This document shows positions 10,453 through 39,413 of a DNA stretch of 43,593 nt, in pieces. The stretch is taken from the NCBI GenBank assembly GCA_024639005.1, contig JAHEJD010000011.1:17837-61429 (forward strand). The letters are read 5' to 3'. The number at the start of each line of letters is the position of its first letter. Within the stretch, counting starts at the first letter, position 1. The position numbers were made by a program, and so were the translations under genes. This stretch comes from Chromatiaceae bacterium (GTDB lineage Bacteria > Pseudomonadota > Gammaproteobacteria > Chromatiales > Chromatiaceae). The notes beneath the pieces are model-generated. The model had not been told where the DNA came from. It searched no databases and worked only from the letters and a program-made list of their open reading frames with translations.

Positions 10453-11553
10453 TCAGGCCGTCGGGCGCAGCTGCGCGGCCTGGGTGATCTCATCGGCGTC
10501 CAGGTCCTTCAGGCTGACGCCGTCAACAGACTTGTCGAGCATGATGTCGAGCAAATTGACGATGTTCTTCGCATAGAAGGCGCTGGCGTCCGAGGGCATC
10601 ATGGCCGGAAAGTTGGTGTGGCCGACCAAGATCACACCATGTCGGGTCACCACCTGGTCGGCCTCGGTCAACGGACAGTTGCCCCCGTTGGCGGCCGCCA
10701 GATCGACGATCACCGAGCCCTCGCGCATGCGCTCGACCACCGCCTCGGTGATCAACACCGGCGCCGGCCGGCACGGGATCAGCGCCGTGGTAATGATGAT
10801 ATGCGCCTTGGCAAGTTCGTCGGCCAGCAGCGCCTGCTGCTTCGCCTTACCCTCCTCAGACAGCTCCTTGGCATAGCCACCCTCGCCCGCGGCGGCCTCA
10901 CCGATGTCGAGCTCGATCGGTTTCGCGCCCAGCGAGGCAATCTGCTCGCGGGTCTCGGGGCGCACATCGTAGCCATAGACGTCACCGCCCAATCGGCGCG
11001 CAGTCGCGATCGCCTGCAGCCCGGCGACACCGGCACCCAGTATCACCACGCGCGCCGGCTTGGCCGAACCGGCCGAGGTCATCATCAGCGGCATAAAGCG
11101 GCCGAAATGGCTGGCCGCCTCGATCACGGCGCGATAGCCGGCGATGTTGCTCTGCGACGATAGCGCGTCCATGGACTGGGCCCGCGAGATACGCGGGATG
11201 CGCTCCACGGCGATTACCTTGATATCGCGCTGCTGCATCGCCGCGATCACCGGATCGGCGTCGTCGCAGGTCTCGGCATGACTTACCAGCACCGAACCAT
11301 CGCGCATCGCGGCCACCTCGTCGGCCGAGGGCTTGCGCACCTTGGCGACGATATTGCAGCCTAGTGCACCGGCCGTATCGGTCAGCTTTACCCCTGCCTC
11401 TTCATAGGCGGCGTCGCCGTAGTGTGCGGCCTCGCCGGCAGCGCGCTCGAGCAGCACTTCGAGGCCACCGGCAATGAGCTTCTTTGCGATCTCGGGCGTC
11501 ATCGCCACCCGTGCCTCGCCAGCGACCCGCTCTTTCGGAATCCCGAGTTTCAT
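10453..11553 (-). CDS. pntAA: NAD(P) transhydrogenase alpha, soluble NAD-binding part
   Basis: A 366-residue soluble subunit holding domain I, which binds NAD(H). It starts with MKLGIPKERVAGEARVAM, the alanine-dehydrogenase/PNT N-terminal signature. SRAQSMDALSSQSNIAGYRA and the Rossmann motif VVILGAGVAGLQAIATARRL, followed by YDVRP, are typical. It is the first gene of the three-gene pnt operon. The start at 11553 fits the family. A long intergenic region with nested inverted repeats lies upstream, so regulation through the leader is possible but unproven. Confidence 0.96.
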   Translation of the reverse strand: MKLGIPKERVAGEARVAMTPEIAKKLIAGGLEVLLERAAGEAAHYGDAAYEEAGVKLTDTAGALGCNIVAKVRKPSADEVAAMRDGSVLVSHAETCDDADPVIAAMQQRDIKVIAVERIPRISRAQSMDALSSQSNIAGYRAVIEAASHFGRFMPLMMTSAGSAKPARVVILGAGVAGLQAIATARRLGGDVYGYDVRPETREQIASLGAKPIELDIGEAAAGEGGYAKELSEEGKAKQQALLADELAKAHIIITTALIPCRPAPVLITEAVVERMREGSVIVDLAAANGGNCPLTEADQVVTRHGVILVGHTNFPAMMPSDASAFYAKNIVNLLDIMLDKSVDGVSLKDLDADEITQAAQLRPTA

Positions 11554-11667
11554 GGTGACTTTGTGCGATCCAGAGGGAGGAAGATTAGAGGCGGATTCGA
11601 TTATCTGCCGAATGACTCACGCAGGTCAAAGCCGTAAAGGTGCGCGAGATGCTGGCAGCCTGTCCAG

Positions 11668-11883
11668 GGCATCCGCCGACCGAAACCTAGCCTGCAAATT
11701 TCACCGTTTTTCGTCGCGAGGGTGTCGAGACGCCGCCATGGCGGGGCGCACGCAGTGAAAGACGGTGGAGGCGCAGCGGACACTGCGTCGAACAGGCTGC
11801 AGCAAGTGCGCCCCGTCAGGACGAGTGTATCGCCGCCCGCGGCCTGCAATCGGTGAGATTTGTAGGCTAGAGCCTCGGATGCC
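11668..11883. repeat. Nested imperfect inverted repeats (large hairpin or MITE-like)
   Basis: Arms pair in order from outside in: GGCATCCG (11668-11675) with CGGATGCC (11876-11883); a 20-bp arm at 11687-11706 with 11851-11870, 18 matches and two positions that become G-U pairs in RNA; CGGGGCGCAC (11742-11751) with GTGCGCCCCG (11806-11815); CGCAGTG (11751-11757) with CACTGCG (11781-11787). The two G-U-compatible mismatches suggest a folded RNA, but a miniature transposable element with decayed ends is equally possible. It lies about 115 bp upstream of pntAA. Confidence 0.6.
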
Positions 11884-12035
11884 GAAAGGCGCAAACCTTG
11901 TTACACGAAAAGCGCTGGGCAAGCCGCAGTGACCCGGGACAAGCGCGCCAGAATGTCAGATCCTTTTACACCTAACTTAATCTGTTATCTACATATAATA
12001 CTTTAAGCCTCTGTTTTAATTAATTACTGATAACT

Positions 12036-12051
12036 TGGCCCAATACCTGCT
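12036..12051 (+). promoter_or_regulatory. Sigma-54 (-24/-12) promoter for the candidate sRNA
   Basis: TGGCCCAATACCTGCT matches the -24/-12 consensus, with GG (12037-12038) and GC (12049-12050) exactly 12 bp apart. The predicted start is about 12062, the first base of the CA-rich stretch. No TTGCA-N3-TGCAA palindrome lies upstream, so its activator is probably not the LuxO-like protein of this window. Confidence 0.55.
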
Positions 12052-12061
12052 TCGGTAATGA

Positions 12062-12143
12062 AAACAACAAAAAGTAACAATAACAAGAACACTCGGGACC
12101 CCGTAACACGGGTACTTCAAGAGCCGGCTCACGCCGGCTTTTT
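12062..12143 (+). ncRNA. Candidate CA-rich Hfq/Crc-titrating small RNA
   Basis: A predicted transcript of about 82 nt begins at the sigma-54 start and ends at a strong intrinsic terminator. Its 5' part is almost only A and C with two runs of A-R-N triplets: AACAACAAAAAG and AACAATAACAAGAAC. Such (ARN)n runs bind the distal face of Hfq and match the AAnAAnAA motif of Crc targets. A short hairpin CCCGT-AAC-ACGGG follows, then the terminator. Pseudomonas CrcZ/CrcY RNAs share both features: a sigma-54 promoter and repeated CA motifs. Whether this organism has Crc is not visible here. No protein frame explains the stretch. Confidence 0.5.
12122..12143 (+). terminator. Rho-independent terminator of the candidate sRNA
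   Basis: AGCCGGC (12122-12128), loop TCAC, GCCGGCT (12133-12139), followed by a T run to 12143. A 7-bp GC-rich stem directly followed by T residues is a textbook intrinsic terminator. Confidence 0.85.
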
Positions 12144-12318
12144 ATTGTCCTCTGGCTGCGCTCCCATACCGGCGGTCCGCCGCGACACCCCGTCGCGTCA
12201 TAGCCGTTTCAAACGACAGCGGGCGCGAATCCCCGATGAACACTGGCCGCGTCCCTGTAGCCAACGCACGGGAGCCGGCCGGCGATTTCCGATTGCTGCC
12301 GAATCTTGGGTAAAATTG

Positions 12319-12334
12319 CAGGCTGCGCAGCCTG
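12319..12334. promoter_or_regulatory. Perfect 16-bp palindrome upstream of rfbB
   Basis: CAGGCTGCGCAGCCTG is a perfect inverted repeat, placed 16 bp before the rfbB start and directly after a -10-like TAAAAT (12311-12316). It could be an operator or, in the mRNA, a hairpin near the ribosome binding site. No binding protein is recognised. Confidence 0.4.
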
Positions 12335-12350
12335 AGAATCCCCAGAGGCC

Positions 12351-13460
12351 ATGGAATCGACCCAACACGTCAACGAACTGCCCTCTCGCGTGCTCGTGAC
12401 CGGTGGCGCCGGTTTCATTGGCGGCAACTTTATCTACCACCTGCTGGCCGAGACCCACGCCGAGGTCGCCAATCTCGATCTGCTGACCTATGCCGGCAAC
12501 CGCGAGACCCTGGCCGGCGTCGAGGACCATCCGCGCTATCGCTTCGTACAGGGCGATATCGCCGACACGGCGGTGGTGCAGGCGATGATCGAGGCGTTCC
12601 GACCGACCTGCATCGTGAACTTCGCCGCCGAGAGCCATGTCGACCGCTCGATCGACGGCCCAGCCGCGTTTATCCATACCAATATCGTAGGCACCTATAA
12701 CCTGCTGGATCGCGCGCTGGCGTTTTGGCGCACGCTCGATGCGGCGGACAAGACGGCGTTCCGCTTCCTGCATGTCTCGACCGATGAAGTCTACGGCTCG
12801 CTGGGCGAGAGCGGGGCCTTTACCGAACAGACGCCCTATGCACCGAGTTCACCCTACTCGGCCTCCAAGGCCGCCTCGGACCACCTGGTGCAGGCCTGGC
12901 ACCACACCTATGGCCTGCCGACCCTGACCACCAACTGCTCCAACAACTACGGCCCCTATCAGTATCCCGAGAAACTCATCCCGTTGATGATCCTCAATGC
13001 CCTGGAGGGCAAGCCGCTGCCGATCTACGGCAACGGCGGCAATGTACGCGACTGGCTGTTCGTGGAGGACCACTGCCGCGCGATCTGGCACGTGGTCAAC
13101 CACGGCCAGCCCGGCGAGATGTACAACGTTGGCGGCAACAGCGAGAAGACCAACCTTGAGGTGGTCGACACCCTGTGTGCCCTGCTCGACGAACTGGTGC
13201 CCGACTCGCCCCACCGCCCGCATGCCCAGCTCAAGACCTTCGTCGCCGACCGCCCCGGCCACGACTGGCGCTATGCGATCGACGCCAGCAAGCTGCGCGA
13301 TCAGCTCGGCTGGCAGCCGCGCGAGACCTTTGAGAGCGGCATGCGCCGCACCGTGCAGTGGTATCTGGGCCATCGCGCCTGGTGCGCGGCCGTCAAGGCC
13401 GATGCCTATGCGGGCCAGCGCCTGGGCCTGGCGCCGAACGCCTCCGAGGAGACCGCATGA
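12351..13460 (+). CDS. rfbB: dTDP-glucose 4,6-dehydratase
   Basis: RmlB, 369 residues, a short-chain dehydrogenase/reductase that converts dTDP-D-glucose to dTDP-4-keto-6-deoxyglucose, step two of dTDP-L-rhamnose synthesis. The N-terminal Rossmann motif [11 protein letters not shown] (about 18-28), STDEVYGS, and the catalytic [10 protein letters not shown] (YxxxK) are intact, with [17 protein letters not shown] and [11 protein letters not shown] typical of RmlB. It is first in a tight rmlBACD operon: its stop overlaps the rfbA start (ATGA at 13457-13460). Confidence 0.97.
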
Positions 13461-32596: not shown

Positions 32597-33867
32597 TGTG
32601 GCACAGCCTGCGTGCCACCTATCTGTTCTATGCGCTCGGTGCACTGTATGTCGTGGCGCCGTTGCTCGCCTGGGGACTGCTGCTGGTATTGCTCTGGCGC
32701 ACCTGGCGTCACGGGCGCTGCAATCCGGCGCTGCCGGACGCCAGACTGCCTGTGGCCGTATGGCTGTGGATAGTTGGCATGTTGGTGATGCTCTTGGCGC
32801 TGATCGTGGGCCATCTCGATTTTCTGCTCGGCATCGGCACAACCGTCAAGTCAACTATCGGTTGGGCCAAGGGCTGGGCGCTACTGGCGATCTTCCCGTT
32901 GCTCGGCTGTCTGCGCATTCGGCCTCAGATCGTCTACCGCGCCGCCATGCACGTCTGTCTGCACACCCTGGTGCTGCTGCCATTTTTCGTCGGCGCCTGG
33001 CTGACCGGTCTACCGCAGACGCCCTATGTGTCGCCGCTGCAGGCTATCGGCGGCCCGGGACCCGAGTTCTTTGCGTTCAATCTCTATGAGATCGACCCAG
33101 GCTCCGGCAGCCCTCGGTGGCGGCTGTTTACCCCGTGGGCGCCGGCATTGGGTTTCGTTGCCAACATCTTTTTCATCTTCGCACTGCAAGAGAAGGATCG
33201 CACCTGGCGACGTATCGGGACCGTCGGCAGCGTTGTGATGATCCTGATGTCCGGCTCGCGCCTTGCGCTGCTGTCGTTGCTGATCGTTTGGGCGGCGGTC
33301 TGGATATTAGGCCACTTGCGGGGCGCGCTCGGCCCATTCTTTGCAGCAGCGGCAGCGGCGCTCGGCGGCCTGATCGCCATGCCGCTGCTCGACGTCTTGG
33401 AGCGCCTCTGGCAGGCGTTTCGTGCCGCTCGCGCAGATTCGACGCGCGTGCGCGAGACGCTGGGCCGTATCGCGCTGGACCGCTGGGCCAACGAGGCCCC
33501 GGTATGGGGGCACGGCATCGTCGAGCGCGGTCCGCACCTGGTGGAATTCATGCCGATCGGATCGCACCACAGCTGGTACGGACTGTTATTCGTCAAGGGC
33601 ATGGTTGGGGCGCTGGCGTTGGCCGTCCCGCTGCTGTTCAGCCTGGCGCAGTTGATCCGATGGAGCGGTCGCCTGCCGCTGGCGCGTGTCGCCTTGGCGG
33701 TGGTGCTGCTGCTGTTCCTGTACACCTTCGGTGAGAACCTGGAGATCCTCGCCTATCTGATTTGGCCGGCGCTGCTGGTGATCGGCACCGCCCATCGCGA
33801 CATCCACATCGCCACGACCACTACTGTAGATCGTTTTTCAAACCTGGGAGTACCTAAACATGCCTAG
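32551..33867 (+). CDS. O-antigen ligase/polymerase (Wzy-like) membrane protein
   Basis: A 438-residue multi-span membrane protein, about ten to twelve hydrophobic helices. The C-terminal half has the Wzy_C/WaaL-like pattern: short helices MILMSGSRLALLSLLIVW, then a large periplasmic loop with RETLGRIALDRWANEAPVWGHGI and HHSWYGLLFVKGMVGAL. It probably polymerises the repeat units. The ATG at 32551 overlaps the previous gene by 46 bp; a GTG at 32596 that overlaps the preceding stop by one base is a good alternative. Confidence 0.82.
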   Translation: MDTQTLLPETLEERVVWHSLRATYLFYALGALYVVAPLLAWGLLLVLLWRTWRHGRCNPALPDARLPVAVWLWIVGMLVMLLALIVGHLDFLLGIGTTVKSTIGWAKGWALLAIFPLLGCLRIRPQIVYRAAMHVCLHTLVLLPFFVGAWLTGLPQTPYVSPLQAIGGPGPEFFAFNLYEIDPGSGSPRWRLFTPWAPALGFVANIFFIFALQEKDRTWRRIGTVGSVVMILMSGSRLALLSLLIVWAAVWILGHLRGALGPFFAAAAAALGGLIAMPLLDVLERLWQAFRAARADSTRVRETLGRIALDRWANEAPVWGHGIVERGPHLVEFMPIGSHHSWYGLLFVKGMVGALALAVPLLFSLAQLIRWSGRLPLARVALAVVLLLFLYTFGENLEILAYLIWPALLVIGTAHRDIHIATTTTVDRFSNLGVPKHA

Positions 33868-34882
33868 AGTCAGTGTGATAATGCCCGTGTACAACGTCGA
33901 ACGCTTTGTCGGCGACGCCGTGCGATCCGTTCTCGCCCAGAGCTTCGGTGATTTCGAACTGCTGATCATCGACGACCTCTCACCCGACCGCAGCTGCGCC
34001 GTCTGCGAGGCCTTCGACGACCCGCGTATACGTATCATCCGCCACCGCGAAAATCGCGGCCTGGCCGGTGCGCGCAACACCGGGATTCGTCATGCGTGCG
34101 GTGAGCTGCTCGCCTTCCTCGACTCGGACGACAGCTGGACGCCGGAGAAACTGGCACTGCACGTCCAGCATCTCAGCGCACGCCCGGAGGTGGGGGTCTC
34201 GTTTAGCCGATCGGCATTCATCAACGAAGACGGTTCGCCGAATCACTGCTATCAGATGCCGCGACTCAGCGCCATCGAACCCGGCTACTACCTATGCCGC
34301 AACCCGATCGGCAACGGGTCAGCGCCGGTGATCCGGCGCCAGGTCCTGGAGCAGATCCGTTTCCAAGACGACCTGCATGGCAGCGTCGAGGACTGCTATT
34401 TCGATGAGCATCTGCGTCGCTCAGAAGACATCGAGTGCTGGATCCGCATCGCCCTTACGACGAAATGGGTGATCGAGGGTATCCCGCAGGCCCTCACGCT
34501 GTATCGCCTCAACGGAGGCGGCCTGTCTGCCAGCCTGTGGCAGCAGTTTGCCTCCTGGGAGCAGGTGATCGAGAAGACCCGCGGCTATGCGCCGACCTTC
34601 ATCGCGGCATGGGAGCGTCCGGCGCGTGCATTCCAGCTGCGCTATCTCGCACGCCAGGCGATTCGCCTGCATGACGGACCGATGGCCATACAGATAGTGC
34701 ACCGCGCCCTCGCCACCGACCCGCAGATCTTGCTGCAAGAACCGGGGCGGACGCTGACCACGCTGTGTGCCGCCTATCTGTTGCGGCTGTCGCCACGGCG
34801 CCTGTATGTCGCCATGGCACAGATCGCGCAACGGCTTATCGGCCGCCTGCAGGCGCGGCGCATCGGCCGCGATGTGGCGTAA
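33860..34882 (+). CDS. Family 2 glycosyltransferase
   Basis: A 340-residue GT-A fold glycosyltransferase. The N-terminus has VSVIMPVYNVERFVGDAVRS, the nucleotide-binding DD in LLIIDDLSPD, and the DxD-type metal site in LAFLDSDDSWTPEKL. The ED of VEDCYFDE in mid-protein may be the base region. The start overlaps the preceding gene by 8 bp with a GGGAG site. It is the last gene of the first EPS operon. Sugar donor and acceptor are unknown. Confidence 0.88.
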   Translation: MPRVSVIMPVYNVERFVGDAVRSVLAQSFGDFELLIIDDLSPDRSCAVCEAFDDPRIRIIRHRENRGLAGARNTGIRHACGELLAFLDSDDSWTPEKLALHVQHLSARPEVGVSFSRSAFINEDGSPNHCYQMPRLSAIEPGYYLCRNPIGNGSAPVIRRQVLEQIRFQDDLHGSVEDCYFDEHLRRSEDIECWIRIALTTKWVIEGIPQALTLYRLNGGGLSASLWQQFASWEQVIEKTRGYAPTFIAAWERPARAFQLRYLARQAIRLHDGPMAIQIVHRALATDPQILLQEPGRTLTTLCAAYLLRLSPRRLYVAMAQIAQRLIGRLQARRIGRDVA

Positions 34883-34896
34883 GGCCCGGGGCTTTT
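34881..34896 (+). terminator. Weak candidate terminator after the GT2 gene
   Basis: AAGGCC-CGG-GGCTTT folds into a short stem (one G-U pair) overlapping a T run, directly after the stop. It could end or attenuate the first EPS transcript before the second sigma-54 promoter. Confidence 0.35.
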
Positions 34897-34921
34897 TGCA
34901 AAGACTCTTGCAGATTGCAAA
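34893..34921. promoter_or_regulatory. LuxO-type enhancer sites upstream of the second EPS operon
   Basis: TTGCAGATTGCAA (34908-34920) is an exact TTGCA-N3-TGCAA operator. A half-site, TTTTTGCAAAG (34893-34903), lies immediately before it. The distance to the predicted start (about 35033) is about 120 bp. Confidence 0.7.
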
Positions 34922-35006
34922 ACAGTCTGCGTGGGGGCCCAGGCGACGGACTGCCTGATCGTTTCTATAGCTTTTAATTTCAACTACTTAGATCTTTTCT
35001 CACAAT

Positions 35007-35022
35007 TGGCACGAAGGTCGCA
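35007..35022 (+). promoter_or_regulatory. Sigma-54 promoter of the second EPS operon
   Basis: TGGCACGAAGGTCGCA has a perfect -24 box and GC (35020-35021) 12 bp after GG. The predicted start is about 35033, leaving a leader of about 36 nt. Confidence 0.8.
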
Positions 35023-35068
35023 AACAGTCTGTGAAAGACAGCTTTCAACGCTTTAGGGAATGTCAACC

Positions 35069-36586
35069 ATGACACAGACTGACCGAGAGAACCTGGCCCG
35101 TTTAACAGCTGAGACGGTGCTGACAATGGACAACCACGTGCCCGAATCGACAACGCGACCAGCTCGAGATGCGTTGCAGCTGTTCGGCCTGGAGATCAGC
35201 AATACCAGCATGCCCCAGGCGGTTGACTGGATCGTGCGGCGGGTGCAGCGCAAACAACCGGCGCTGCTCAATTTCGTCAACGCGCATTGCCTGAACGTCG
35301 CCTGCCGCAATACGGCCTATCGCCGCGCCCTCGGGCGCTCCACCCGTCTGTTGCCGGATGGCAGCGGGGTGAAGCTGGCGCTGCGCCTCAAGGGTGAAAA
35401 CCTGATCGAGAACCTCAACGGCACCGACCTGTTCCCGCCCCTGTGCGCTGCGGCGCAACGCCATGGTCTGTCGCTTTATCTCCTCGGCGCGGCACCGGGT
35501 GTCGCCGCGCGCATGGCCGACAATATGCAGCGGCGCTATCCTGGACTGCGAATAGCCGGAACCCAGCATGGCTTTTTCGAGGCGGCACATGACGCCGCCG
35601 TCGTCGCCGATATCAACCGCTCCGGCGCCGATATCCTGCTGGTTGCGATGGGCGTGCCGCGCCAGGAACTGTGGCTTGTACAGCACCAGGACCGCCTGCA
35701 GACGACGGTGAACATGGGCGTCGGTGGCCTGTTCGATTTCTATTCAGGACGCATCCGCCGGGCGCCATGGTGGCTGCGGCGCCTGGGCATGGAGTGGACC
35801 TGGCGTCTGTTGCAGGAGCCAGCGCGGATGTGGCGCCGTTATCTCCTCGGCAACCCCGAGTTCGTGCTGCGCGCGCTGTTCCATGCAATGCGGACGCCAC
35901 ACCGACAGGCGCCACTCGACGGGCTGCGCCAGAGCTATCTCAAGGCGTCTGGCCGACGCCTGTGCTGGTGGCTTTCCAGACGGGCAACGCCATTTGGCAG
36001 ACGCACACTGGATGTTGTCGGGGCAGGGCTGGCGCTGCTGCTCGCCGGCCCGCTGATGGCGGCTGCGGCGCTCGCCATTCGCCTGGAATCACCAGGCCCA
36101 GTGTTCTTCCATCAGGATCGGGTGGGCCAGCGCGGCAAGACTTTCCGGCTATGGAAATTTCGTTCGATGTATCTCGATGCCGAGGCACGCAAGGCGGAAC
36201 TGACAAACGAGAACCAGATGGCCGGGGGCGTGCTGTTCAAGATCAAACGGGATCCGCGCATCACCCGTGTCGGCCGTATCCTGCGGCGCTTCTCTATCGA
36301 TGAGCTGCCGCAGTTGTGGAACGTCATGCGCGGCGACATGGCGTTGGTGGGTCCGCGTCCGGCATTGCCTGCCGAGGTGGCTCAGTACTCGCTCATGGAC
36401 CGGAACCGCCTGCTGACCCGGCCTGGAATCACCTGCATTTGGCAGGTCTCCGGGCGCTCCAACATCCCCTTCGAAGGTCAGGTGGCGATGGACCTGGAGT
36501 ATATCCACAAGGCGACGCTGAGCACCGATCTGAAGCTGCTGTTGAAAACCGTGCCCGCTGTGATCAGCGGGCATGGCGCCTATTGA
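35069..36586 (+). CDS. Fusion: WecG/TagA glycosyltransferase plus priming sugar-phosphate transferase
   Basis: A 505-residue two-domain protein. The first part (about 35-225) is a WecG/TagA/CpsF (GT26) glycosyltransferase, with NFVNAHCLNVACRN, LPDGSGVKLAL, NGTDLFPPL and GVPRQELWL. The second part (about 300-505) is a bacterial sugar transferase (WcaJ/PglC-type monotopic phosphoglycosyl transferase) with a re-entrant helix (LALLLAGPLMAAAALAI), WKFRSM, and the catalytic Asp-Glu in SIDELPQLWNV, then GDMALVGPRPALP. It could both prime undecaprenyl phosphate and add the second sugar. The ATG at 35069 is preferred over 35060 because the AGGGA site is 9 bases away. Confidence 0.9.
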   Translation: MTQTDRENLARLTAETVLTMDNHVPESTTRPARDALQLFGLEISNTSMPQAVDWIVRRVQRKQPALLNFVNAHCLNVACRNTAYRRALGRSTRLLPDGSGVKLALRLKGENLIENLNGTDLFPPLCAAAQRHGLSLYLLGAAPGVAARMADNMQRRYPGLRIAGTQHGFFEAAHDAAVVADINRSGADILLVAMGVPRQELWLVQHQDRLQTTVNMGVGGLFDFYSGRIRRAPWWLRRLGMEWTWRLLQEPARMWRRYLLGNPEFVLRALFHAMRTPHRQAPLDGLRQSYLKASGRRLCWWLSRRATPFGRRTLDVVGAGLALLLAGPLMAAAALAIRLESPGPVFFHQDRVGQRGKTFRLWKFRSMYLDAEARKAELTNENQMAGGVLFKIKRDPRITRVGRILRRFSIDELPQLWNVMRGDMALVGPRPALPAEVAQYSLMDRNRLLTRPGITCIWQVSGRSNIPFEGQVAMDLEYIHKATLSTDLKLLLKTVPAVISGHGAY

Positions 36587-36604
36587 TTGAGTCCGGAGAA
36601 AATC

Positions 36605-38074
36605 ATGCAAGCCGTAGTCTTTGCCGATCGTCATGGTGCCGAACTGGCCCCGCTGTGCGACAACCTGTGCCCGGCGCTATTGAGCCTCGCCAATCTCCCG
36701 GTGCTGCAATACACCATCGAGGATCTGGCGCGCGCCGGTGTGACCGAGATCCTGCTGGTGGTGTCCGACGACGCTGCGCGAGTCGAGTCCGTATTCGGCG
36801 ACGGCGCTATGTGGGGCGTTTGTATCCGCTATCTCTTGTCGCGCGGCGAAGAGTCGCCGACGCGCCTGCTGGCGCGCTTTGGCTCACTGCTGCGCACGCC
36901 ATTCGTCGCCGCGCGCGGTGATGTGTTCCGCAGCGCCGCCTGTAGCGAGCTTCTGGGCGTCGCCAACGACCAGCCGGGGCCGGTGGTGAGTGCCGCGCTG
37001 GACGGCTCGCCGATCGGACTGGGTCTGGTCCGCGAGTGGCCGACCGCCTTACCTGACCTCGACTGGCCGATGCGGAGCAAGCACTGCGCAGACCAGGCGC
37101 CAGTGCATCTCAAGCAGGCCTTGTTCTCCCCGCTGGATCATCTGGCATCCTTTCACCGGGCTGTCTTAGAGCTCGCCGTGCCGACCCAGTCCGCACTGGG
37201 GCGGCCCGGCGCGGAGCTGGCGCCCGGGCTGCGGGTCGGGCGACTCAGTAAGGTCGATCCCGGGAGTCTTGCATCCGGCAGCCTCGCCGTCGGCGAACAG
37301 AGCTGGGTGCACAAGACAGCACACATCAACGGCCCTTGCGTGATCGGCAGCGATTGCTACATCGATCGTGACGTGCGGATAGACAACAGCGTGGTGATGC
37401 CCGGCAGCTACATCGGTGAGAACCTCGAGGTGACGAATGCCATCGTTGCCGGCAGCACGCTGATCCGCGTCGACCTTGGCGCGCAGATTGTGGTCGATGA
37501 GAACCAGTTGCTGTCGAACAATGACAGCGAGTTCGCGGGCAGGTTTCGGCAGTGGCCGGCGCGCATGATCGGCGCGGCACTGTTGCTCCTAACGCTACCC
37601 TTGTGGCCGCTGGCGCTGCTTGCGTCGAGCATTCCATCGGCAAGAGCCCCGTTGAGCTCCAGGGAGATCCTCAGCAATCGCCGCCAGGCCGGTCACGGCT
37701 CACGGCGACGCCCGACGATCAAGGCCTGGCTTTTCAGTACACGCAGCCCGCTGTTGCGCCACCTGCCGATGTTGTGGCTGGTCGCCCGCGGTGATCTGCA
37801 GTTCTTCGGAACGCGGCCAATACCGCCGGCTCCTGGAGATCGAGACACTCAAACCCGCGGCTGGCTGGACGGTTCAGCCACCGGCGGCCTGCTCGGACCG
37901 GCTCAGCTGTTCCTGTCTGCAGACGCGCCTGAAGAGCAGATCCGACTTTGCGAACTCGAGTTCGTCGCCGACCGTGGTCTGCCTGCGCTGCGTCGACGGC
38001 TCGGTGCAGCTGCAAGCCTGCTGTTCCATCCCCGTGCCTGGTGGCCGGCGCACGACACCCTCGGAGGTTCCTGA
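36605..38074 (+). CDS. Degenerate nucleotidyltransferase/left-handed helix/sugar-transferase-like protein
   Basis: A 489-residue protein with three parts. Residues 1-210 look like a sugar-nucleotidyltransferase fold (LANLPVLQYTIEDLARAGVTEILLVV), but the GGxGTRL signature is missing. Residues about 225-305 show imperfect left-handed beta-helix hexapeptides (HINGPCVIGSDCYIDRDVRI). A hydrophobic helix (about 322-341) leads to a segment like the priming transferases: LRHLPMLWLVARGDLQFFGT then RPIP, with Arg385-His386 where the catalytic Asp-Glu would be. Both catalytic centres therefore appear lost, pointing to a scaffold or regulator of EPS assembly. The ATG at 36605 has a GGAGAAAA site; the next gene starts 1 bp after the stop. 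Confidence 0.75.
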   Translation: MQAVVFADRHGAELAPLCDNLCPALLSLANLPVLQYTIEDLARAGVTEILLVVSDDAARVESVFGDGAMWGVCIRYLLSRGEESPTRLLARFGSLLRTPFVAARGDVFRSAACSELLGVANDQPGPVVSAALDGSPIGLGLVREWPTALPDLDWPMRSKHCADQAPVHLKQALFSPLDHLASFHRAVLELAVPTQSALGRPGAELAPGLRVGRLSKVDPGSLASGSLAVGEQSWVHKTAHINGPCVIGSDCYIDRDVRIDNSVVMPGSYIGENLEVTNAIVAGSTLIRVDLGAQIVVDENQLLSNNDSEFAGRFRQWPARMIGAALLLLTLPLWPLALLASSIPSARAPLSSREILSNRRQAGHGSRRRPTIKAWLFSTRSPLLRHLPMLWLVARGDLQFFGTRPIPPAPGDRDTQTRGWLDGSATGGLLGPAQLFLSADAPEEQIRLCELEFVADRGLPALRRRLGAAASLLFHPRAWWPAHDTLGGS

Positions 38075-38075
38075 G

Positions 38076-39413
38076 ATGACCTCTGCATCCACGCTGACGG
38101 TCGCGGCGCCTGGGCAGAGCGGCCGACTGTTGTCAGCCCGCCGGCTGTCGACCAGCGCTATGCATGCAACGCTGGTCAGGATCCTCGGGCCGGCCAGCTC
38201 GTTTGCGATGGCAATGATCCTGGCGAGTGCACTCGGTGCCGCCGGATCGGGTGTCTTCTATGTGGCCCTGACCCTGGTCACTGCATTGGCGATTCTGGCC
38301 AAGTTCGGTCTCGAGACCGCACTGCAGCGCTTCGTAGGCGCAGAGCGAGGTAGTGACCGCATGCCCGCCGTCATCGGCATCTATCGGCAGGCGTTGAAGA
38401 TCAGCATCAGCCTGGCCGCATTGATCAGCGCTCTGTGCATTGTCGCGGCCGCGCCGATCGCGCGCAGCGTGCTGGACGACCCGAATCAGGCGGACCTTGT
38501 CCGCGTGCTGGGCCTGCTGATCCTGCCCTACACCCTGCTCGGCGTTCATTCGGCAATGCTGAAGGCCTTGGCCAGACCGGCCTGGGGCGGCTTCTTCGAG
38601 GCAGCAGCCTGGCCGTTGCTTACGCTGAGCCTGACGGCGCTGGGTCTGCTGCACGGCGCGCTATCGCCTTACGCGATTGCCGTCATCTATCTGCTGGCCT
38701 CACTGCTCGCCGCCGCGGGCTCCTATGCAATGGTCCGCAGCCGCCTGCCGCGCGGTATTCGAGCAGCGCCGATGCCGGCGAGCACCCTGTACAGCAGCTG
38801 TATATCGCTGACCGGCGTGGAGCTGATCAACTATGCCCTGCTGTGGTTACCCTTTATCCTGCTGCCCGCGCTCGCCGGCGCCGATGAGGCGGGCCTCTAC
38901 AACGTGAGCCACCGACTCGCGGCGCAACTCGGTCTGTTGATGCTGGTCGTCGCCTCTATCACCTCTGCCCGATTTGCCGACCACTATCGGCAGCGCCACC
39001 TTGTTGATCTGCGCAGACTGGCCGGACGCGCGACGCGTACGCTGCTCATGTTCGGGCTGCCGGCGACGATCGTCTTATTGCTCTGGGGTGAGCAGATTCT
39101 GCACATTTTTGGCGTCGAGTTCGTCGCTGCAGCCAGCGCGCTGCGCATCCTGGTGATTGGGCAGCTGATCAATCTCGCCACCGGTCCGGTCGGCTATCTC
39201 TTGGCGATGACGGGCCAAGAACGCCTGTTGCGCAATGTCCTGCTGGCGACCGTGAGTCTGCTGCTGCCGATGGCGTTGCTGCTGATCCCACCATTCGGTG
39301 CCACCGGCGCCGCCATCGCGGTGTCCGCTGCCATCGTCTTCCATAACCTCATATGCAGCCGCTTGGTCTCGCAGCGCCTGGGCCTGCCGTTTTTCCTCGC
39401 ATTCGCCCGTTGA
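38076..39413 (+). CDS. Wzx-like polysaccharide flippase
   Basis: A 445-residue membrane protein of the MOP/PST flippase type with about 12 helices. The pattern VRILGPASSFAMAMILASALGAAGSGVFYVALTL-like N-terminus (residues about 30-65), ARFADHYRQRH after helix 10 and FGVEFVAAASALRILVIGQL near the end are typical. It should move lipid-linked repeat units across the inner membrane for the polymerase. The ATG at 38076 follows GGAGG and starts right after the previous stop; longer upstream frame is the previous gene in another frame. Confidence 0.86.
   Translation: MTSASTLTVAAPGQSGRLLSARRLSTSAMHATLVRILGPASSFAMAMILASALGAAGSGVFYVALTLVTALAILAKFGLETALQRFVGAERGSDRMPAVIGIYRQALKISISLAALISALCIVAAAPIARSVLDDPNQADLVRVLGLLILPYTLLGVHSAMLKALARPAWGGFFEAAAWPLLTLSLTALGLLHGALSPYAIAVIYLLASLLAAAGSYAMVRSRLPRGIRAAPMPASTLYSSCISLTGVELINYALLWLPFILLPALAGADEAGLYNVSHRLAAQLGLLMLVVASITSARFADHYRQRHLVDLRRLAGRATRTLLMFGLPATIVLLLWGEQILHIFGVEFVAAASALRILVIGQLINLATGPVGYLLAMTGQERLLRNVLLATVSLLLPMALLLIPPFGATGAAIAVSAAIVFHNLICSRLVSQRLGLPFFLAFAR

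Follow-up and report, generated by a model that had tools for sequence, protein, structure and literature searches.

The intergenic region between pntA (10453-11553, minus strand) and rmlB (12351-13460, plus strand) is part of a 43,593-nucleotide stretch of DNA, referred to as the window. It belongs to the genome of an uncultured gammaproteobacterium (G000; 3.2 Mb, 155 contigs, 96% complete), and the name rmlB rests on the protein family together with the neighboring rml genes. The region hosts the parts of a candidate small RNA (sRNA) gene, all on the plus strand:

11954-11970, plus: PEP-CTERM box TGTCAGATCCTTTTACA, predicted PrsR enhancer; the only TGTC-N7-TTTACA in the window, with 0 in 100 shuffles
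12004-12015, plus: IHF-like site TAAGCCTCTGTT, lying downstream of the enhancer and upstream of the promoter and called with the IHF consensus
12036-12050, plus: sigma-54 -24/-12 promoter TGGCCCAATACCTGC (GG-N10-GC); TGGCCC-N6-TGC in eight out of eight genus copies
12062-12143, plus: candidate small RNA of ~82 nt, its start set by promoter geometry and its end by the terminator; homologues in eight of nine genus genomes
12063-12090, plus: ARN-rich part, predicted Hfq distal-face site; ARN-enriched over shuffles and unpaired in the fold
12091-12121, plus: small variable hairpin; all seven predicted folds form a stem here, with little common sequence
12122-12144, plus: intrinsic terminator, GCCGGC/GCCGGC stem and U-run; eight out of eight copies, with a compensatory pair in the stem of the G005 copy

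Parts of the candidate small RNA gene

The promoter, the A-R-N runs, and the terminator had been picked out by an earlier sequence-only reading, and our analysis agrees with it on each. The promoter places the start, counted as 12 nt past the C of the -12 element, at ~12062 within a CA-rich stretch; runs of four and five in-phase A-R-N triplets flank a single U (12063-12090), alternatively read as one run of seven (12070-12090); and the stem with its U-run closes the RNA at ~12143. The enhancer is an extra part that was absent from that description. Taken by itself, the -24/-12 match is weak evidence, since TGGC-N8-TGC was found 28 times in the window versus 13.5 expected. The combination of promoter and ARN runs is not chance: an ARN run of at least seven triplets and a promoter followed within 40 nt by at least five ARN triplets each occur once in the window, with 0.01 expected in either case.

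The candidate sRNA carries approximately nine ARN triplets in 82 nt. Its predicted fold (-23.4 kcal/mol versus -12.6 for shuffles) beats 200 out of 200 shuffled sequences (z ~ -4.2) and leaves the A-rich part unpaired. A simple terminator scan left the sRNA terminator unflagged; stem and U-run are nonetheless plain in sequence and fold. The locus is single-copy in its own genome (blastn, E 0.001), and blastn against plasmids returned two short matches that we attribute to chance. Scanning the window with Rfam gave zero matches at gathering score. Within 11560-12360 five weak matches appeared, the best with E 1.1 and all far under cut-off, the only fitting lead for the sRNA being CyaR (15.9 bits, E 7.4, versus a cut-off of 47 bits). 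Between pntA and the enhancer, the region additionally contains a MITE-like element of 184 bp (11687-11870), with ends of 20 bp (CTAGCCTGCAAATTTCACCG) in inverted order with two mismatches and an inner inverted repeat (11734-11751 and 11806-11823).

Conservation of the candidate small RNA within one genus

A first homologue search covering 56 related genomes yielded one clear homologue, in G001, which likewise lies divergent from pntA. We located pntA in eight of the nine genomes of the genus, and the same assembly of promoter, ARN stretch, hairpin, and terminator was found upstream of it in seven of these, the exception being G007. The seven pntA-side copies served to build a covariance model (R1), which then recovers them, so that G007 and the distant locus L166 are the only held-out cases. 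The model matches eight of the nine genus genomes with E 3.4e-11 or better; the copy in G007 lies elsewhere, after rmlCD, and scored E 3.4e-11, while G003 (89% complete) is without a match. Conservation in relatives, to which the sequence-only reading had looked for support, is thereby borne out with regard to both the promoter and the ARN pattern.

Beyond the genus, no strong model R1 match was obtained in the other 185 of the 194 family genomes, the best (E 0.00106) covering a terminator only. The 21 family rows from other genera, none with an E better than 0.001, were all judged by eye and mostly represent ordinary terminators or coding stretches, none of them with box and promoter. Extension of the model to 369 genomes of the class gave 10 weak matches, all of which were inspected, and L166 alone combined a box-like motif, promoter, ARN stretches, and terminator. 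A first pattern with AACAACAA matched 11 of the 194 family genomes (reversed control: 2). A strict pattern applied to genome_contigs (84,980 species) returned three loci in uncultured gammaproteobacterial MAGs, two of them apparently the G008 and G001 loci.

Within the genus, the parts differ in how strongly they are conserved. Mean pairwise identity exceeds the shuffled background by 0.21 in the box and by 0.25 in both promoter and terminator, versus 0.07 in the hairpin, 0.03 in the ARN stretch, and ~0.02 in spacer and flanks. Judged from the aligned copies, it is the triplet pattern of the ARN stretch that is conserved, not its letters. The ARN total was matched by at most eight of 500 shuffles in five of the seven copies (17 in G006, 41 in G001), and the longest run (4-7 triplets) by 0-3 of 300 shuffles in six of seven (47 in G004); the enrichment is therefore weak in two copies, G001 when the total is considered and G004 when the longest run is, and G006 has a single run, of four triplets. 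Centroid folds leave the ARN stretch unpaired in five of seven copies, including the one in the window; in G002 and G006 some of the stretch is paired to the U-run. The hairpins of four of the eight copies share GGGAC-N-CC, and the copies have no ATG frame in common.

The upstream box and the PEP-CTERM regulon

All eight sRNA copies have TGTC-N7-TTTAC(A/G), 17 nt in length, 63-66 nt before TGGC. The box ends in TTTACA in seven of them, window included, and in TTTACG in G005. Haft et al. (2006) described a 17-nt motif ending in TTTACA before proteobacterial PEP-CTERM genes, followed by a sigma-54 motif after a spacer of 62.8 nt (SD 10.6), and assigned this box system to PrsK/PrsR by phylogenetic profile (PMC1569441). 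Compared without the published logo, the sRNA promoter agrees with these promoters in length and 3' end of the box, spacing, and -24/-12 motif, and PrsK, PrsR, and EpsB_2 are likewise encoded in G000; it differs in that a non-coding RNA instead of a PEP-CTERM gene lies downstream. The passages of that paper dealing with the motif report a few extra sites before other genes and mention no RNA. For one PEP-CTERM gene, pepA of Aquincola, a start has been mapped behind TGGCAC/CTGCTT and found to be RpoN1-dependent (PMC9850573).

In G000, PrsK scored 820 bits (cut-off 300) and PrsR 639 bits (cut-off 502.6), the latter though the protein is cut by a contig end, and the genes for PrsK, PrsR, and EpsB_2 are found side by side. 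A search for GTCA-N6-TTTAC followed after 50-80 nt by TGGC-N8-TGC gave 31 matches in the nine genus genomes, with zero matches for the reversed pattern in the same genomes. Thirty box loci were examined: seven represent the sRNA, four a second RNA termed element B, and nine precede complete proteins whose C-termini look PEP-CTERM-like by eye; the remaining ten show frames running off the locus, unrelated frames, or positions inside genes. Eight of the nine proteins have NCBIfam matches of PEP-CTERM or related type, and five of these exceed a curated cut-off; the ninth (L080) has a PEP-CTERM-like end by eye while matching none. An IHF-like site 31-33 nt before TGGC, called with the same consensus, is present in seven of the 30 box promoters versus 0.31 expected; only two of these seven are sRNA copies (G000, G001).

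PrsR (TIGR02915) was detected over cut-off in 98 of the 194 family genomes and in six of the nine within the genus, G003 having a partial protein and G005 (80% complete) and G008 (99% complete) none. Despite being PrsR-negative, G008 has box promoters before L073 (PepA-like, under cut-off) and before L080. Since PrsR is found in 98 of 194 family genomes and the model R1 sRNA in one genus, the sRNA, as far as its distribution indicates, is not a core part of the PrsK/PrsR system. The leaders of 12 protein genes behind the same box reach longest ARN runs of only 1-4 triplets, compared with 4-7 in the seven sRNA copies; ARN runs are therefore not a side effect of this promoter class. ARN sites at the starts of PEP-CTERM mRNAs, considered as possible targets of a decoy, are not supported, since two of the 12 leaders stand out and 18 of 300 shuffles reach the sum. 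A further locus in G000 (L072:1501-1964; G000:C67:4514) places full box and sigma-54 promoter before a short DnaJ-like ORF (by eye), with no PEP-CTERM gene.

Element B is a predicted RNA of ~110 nt with a long, strongly covarying hairpin, located behind the same kind of box and sigma-54 promoter. It was found in eight places in seven of the nine genus genomes, four being seed copies and four recovered via a second model, R2 (E 1.4e-14 to 7e-6):

L064:1579-1708 (G000:C59:1735-1864): element B copy
L063:143-266: element B copy
L071:1579-1706: element B copy
L082:1579-1705: element B copy
L159:1501-1627: element B copy
L160:1501-1624: element B copy
L161:1501-1632, minus: element B copy
L162:1501-1627, minus: element B copy

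The copies share the inner motif CCUGUGCCGAG...GAGAACA. In six of the eight, TGTC-N7-TTTACA starts 79-81 nt before TGGC; of the other two boxes one reads TGTA...TTTACG and one is without the first T. Compensatory changes were counted in 11 of 22 pairs of a MAFFT alignment, and in 13 of 24 pairs of a model-fitted alignment versus 5.0 in shuffles, though the model-fitted alignment contains one spurious antisense row and is biased toward the model's own structure. Nothing convincing was found in the 185 other family genomes. Of two weak matches outside the genus (E 8.8e-4 and 0.005), one turned out to be an inverted repeat and the other had neither box nor promoter. The four seed loci gave a single Rfam match, to a microRNA family (E 0.19, far under cut-off).

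A looser pattern of box, promoter, and AACAA matched 26 of the 194 family genomes (reversed control: 5), and 24 of the 25 rows outside the genus were inspected. Most are chance matches within genes or close to them, and another five or six are box promoters ahead of secreted-protein-like frames of putative PEP-CTERM status; one, L092 (1595-1755; G106, same family, other genus), is a free-standing ARN-rich RNA candidate. There, an exact box TGTCGGGCTGATTTACA lies 62 nt before the TGGCAC promoter TGGCACACTGTATGC, and the predicted RNA of ~161 nt, with ARN runs and a GCGGG terminator, is flanked by a helicase-like gene on one side and a convergent gene on the other, with no long ORF in between; it contains a frame of ~21 codons (ATGAATAATAAC...). 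Its ARN total was reached by nine of 500 shuffles and its longest run by 43. Model R1 gave no sequence homology to the sRNA, and G106 has no PrsR over cut-off. Since L092 was found by a pattern that required AACAA, it left our probabilities unchanged. The match at L166 (1501-1672, minus strand; G501:C2:19588-19759; E 3.6e-4 with model R1) belongs to a different gammaproteobacterial family. It has CGTC-N7-TTTACA 75 nt before TGGC, a TGGCCC promoter, ARN stretches, and a terminator. Its intergenic position is flanked by a gene resembling a cytochrome gene and by a convergent one resembling a protease gene, both named by eye; the locus is likely a distant look-alike of the sRNA. Together, L092 and L166 hint at box-driven ARN RNAs beyond one genus. 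At L169 (1501-1583; G261, other family), GGCACGAATTTTGC (GG-N10-GC) directly precedes an ARN-rich stretch; the 110 nt examined contain no TTTACA box, and the locus may be another kind of sigma-54 RNA with a similar design.

Probable Hfq link, proposed mode of action, and rival explanations

ARN stretches of small RNAs bind the distal face of Hfq, and U-tails bind its proximal face or rim. Class II Hfq sRNAs such as ChiX, MgrR, and CyaR combine an ARN stretch, a hairpin, and a U-tailed terminator in about 85 nt. The candidate RNA follows the same layout at 82 nt and differs from them in being without a conserved seed and without an Rfam match at gathering score. Hfq was detected over cut-off in nine out of nine genus genomes, and the G000 protein has G29, I30, and K31, with F at the place of Y25 in E. 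coli, residues that we take to mark the distal face. By these features the sRNA probably binds Hfq. We consider it rather likely that the locus is a free-standing sRNA gene of the PEP-CTERM/exopolysaccharide regulon, switched by PrsK/PrsR and sigma-54 and encoding an Hfq-binding RNA.

What we observe directly comprises the DNA parts with their spacing and joint conservation, along with the presence of PrsK, PrsR, and Hfq; from these we infer a possible chain of events. PrsK would activate the response regulator PrsR, which, going by the box, would bind at 11954-11970. IHF-like bending of the DNA would carry box-bound PrsR to the sigma-54 polymerase at 12036-12050, the expected product being a terminated transcript of ~82 nt. 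Judging by its motifs, this RNA would engage the distal face of Hfq with its A-R-N stretch and the proximal face or rim with its U-tail. While the surface programme is on, the sRNA would alter Hfq-dependent control, most likely as a decoy and nearly as likely through base pairing of the ChiX/CyaR type.

Given an Hfq-binding RNA, we regard decoy action as an outcome with appreciable probability, short of an even chance. The pattern of the ARN stretch is kept whereas its sequence is lost, and no seed is common to all copies, which points to a protein-binding RNA; a decoy function is slightly favored over base pairing on the ground that letters drift within the kept A-R-N pattern. With room for approximately one Hfq hexamer, a decoy would need strong expression. 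A PrsR-switched, base-pairing class II sRNA, whose seed would lie in the hairpin or in the ARN stretch, is a serious alternative, to which we assign somewhat less than an even chance, other outcomes sharing the rest. The overall layout is the one of class II sRNAs, CyaR was the sole fitting Rfam lead, and GGGAC-N-CC, present in half of the hairpins, may serve for pairing. Against it stand the small excess of hairpin identity and the fact that the eight copies have no seed common to all.

Other readings of the locus fare considerably worse. One takes the locus as a leader or attenuator of rmlB, or as an mRNA for a small protein: rmlB does follow on the same strand at 12351, and an ATG ORF of 113 aa extends from 12058, but the next gene is a different and convergent one at L002, L041, and L127 (three other places with ORFs listed), and the ORF, which begins 4 nt upstream of the predicted +1, lacks a Pfam match and is absent from the other copies. 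We judge this reading very improbable. That box and promoter are real and the RNA itself is a chance product or a decayed, functionless remnant would fit the confinement of clear homologues to one genus and the fast divergence of the RNA body; against this, box, promoter, ARN pattern, hairpin, and terminator have been retained together in eight of nine species-level genomes, whereas spacers and flanks hardly rise above background, so that we consider a remnant very improbable.

The sequence-only reading had likened the RNA to CrcZ, and this comparison holds for the design and not for the identity. What stands is a free-standing sigma-54 RNA gene, conserved in its design, that has ARN runs and ends in a terminator; what does not is the equation with CrcZ, considering the PrsR-type box and the missing CbrB cluster. 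CrcZ is an Hfq decoy of 407 nt with several A-rich motifs (PMC8395346), and CrcZ/CrcY also occur in Azotobacter (PMC6292655). With CrcZ, CrcY, and CrcX of Pseudomonas, the sRNA would share a sigma-54 promoter, a two-component activator, IHF, A-rich Hfq motifs, and possibly decoy action, features described there (PMC8395346) and predicted here. A true CrcZ/CrcY homologue, that is, a CbrB-activated decoy of Hfq/Crc in carbon catabolite repression, would explain promoter, ARN runs, and terminator alike, yet is highly unlikely. CbrB sites consist of a forward TGTTAC and two reverse GTAACA subsites, and CbrAB has been reported as exclusive to Pseudomonadaceae (PMC6296734); the 200 nt upstream of the sRNA contain no such cluster, a single TGTTAC or GTAACA being present in two of eight copies and none in six, and the PEP-CTERM-type box stands in its place. 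The RNA is 82 nt long versus 407 nt for CrcZ (PMC8395346), and the window is without an Rfam match at gathering score.

Each genus genome encodes one or two ExoIII-family proteins. A search for crc in G000, the genome covered by this comparison, came up with two such proteins, neither of them Crc-like, hence no Crc partner among the ExoIII-family proteins of this 96% complete genome. The first scores 367 bits with E. coli ExoIII and 45.6 bits with Crc, the second 323 bits with a Neisseria AP endonuclease and 251 bits with Crc, E. coli and Neisseria presumably being the source organisms of the solved structures. Aligned with Crc of P. aeruginosa, the second protein has QELK, GDWN, WWSN, and SDH where Crc has QDTR, GSLY, WWPD, and SQH, positions that we take to be catalytic.

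An RNA of the PEP-CTERM/exosortase regulon was not described in the accessible parts of the literature combining PEP-CTERM or exosortase with small RNA or Hfq. A known parallel is Dv_sRNA2 of Desulfovibrio vulgaris, a target of the response regulator DVU0679 (PMC3333781) and likewise an sRNA under direct response-regulator control, which is predicted here; the relevant passages list it neither as a target of the PrsR-like DVUA0057 nor as an ARN RNA. Our data suggest that the PEP-CTERM surface programme also has an RNA arm. More tentatively, and with the balance of probability against it, PrsK/PrsR may control non-coding RNAs in addition to sorted surface proteins: an Hfq decoy freeing Hfq-repressed mRNAs during surface-layer building, and element B. 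If true, a CrcZ-like circuit would have arisen independently and been wired to biofilm matrix production rather than carbon limitation, and other lineages may hold similar circuits (L092, L166). A PrsR-switched Hfq-binding RNA would link matrix assembly to global post-transcriptional control and directly test whether Hfq decoys arose more than once.

Farther downstream, the window contains polysaccharide genes (33860-39413), encoding a glycosyltransferase, a weakly flippase-like protein, and a WecG/sugar-phosphate transferase fusion (35060-36586), whose score falls short of the cut-off set for the XrtA-system model.
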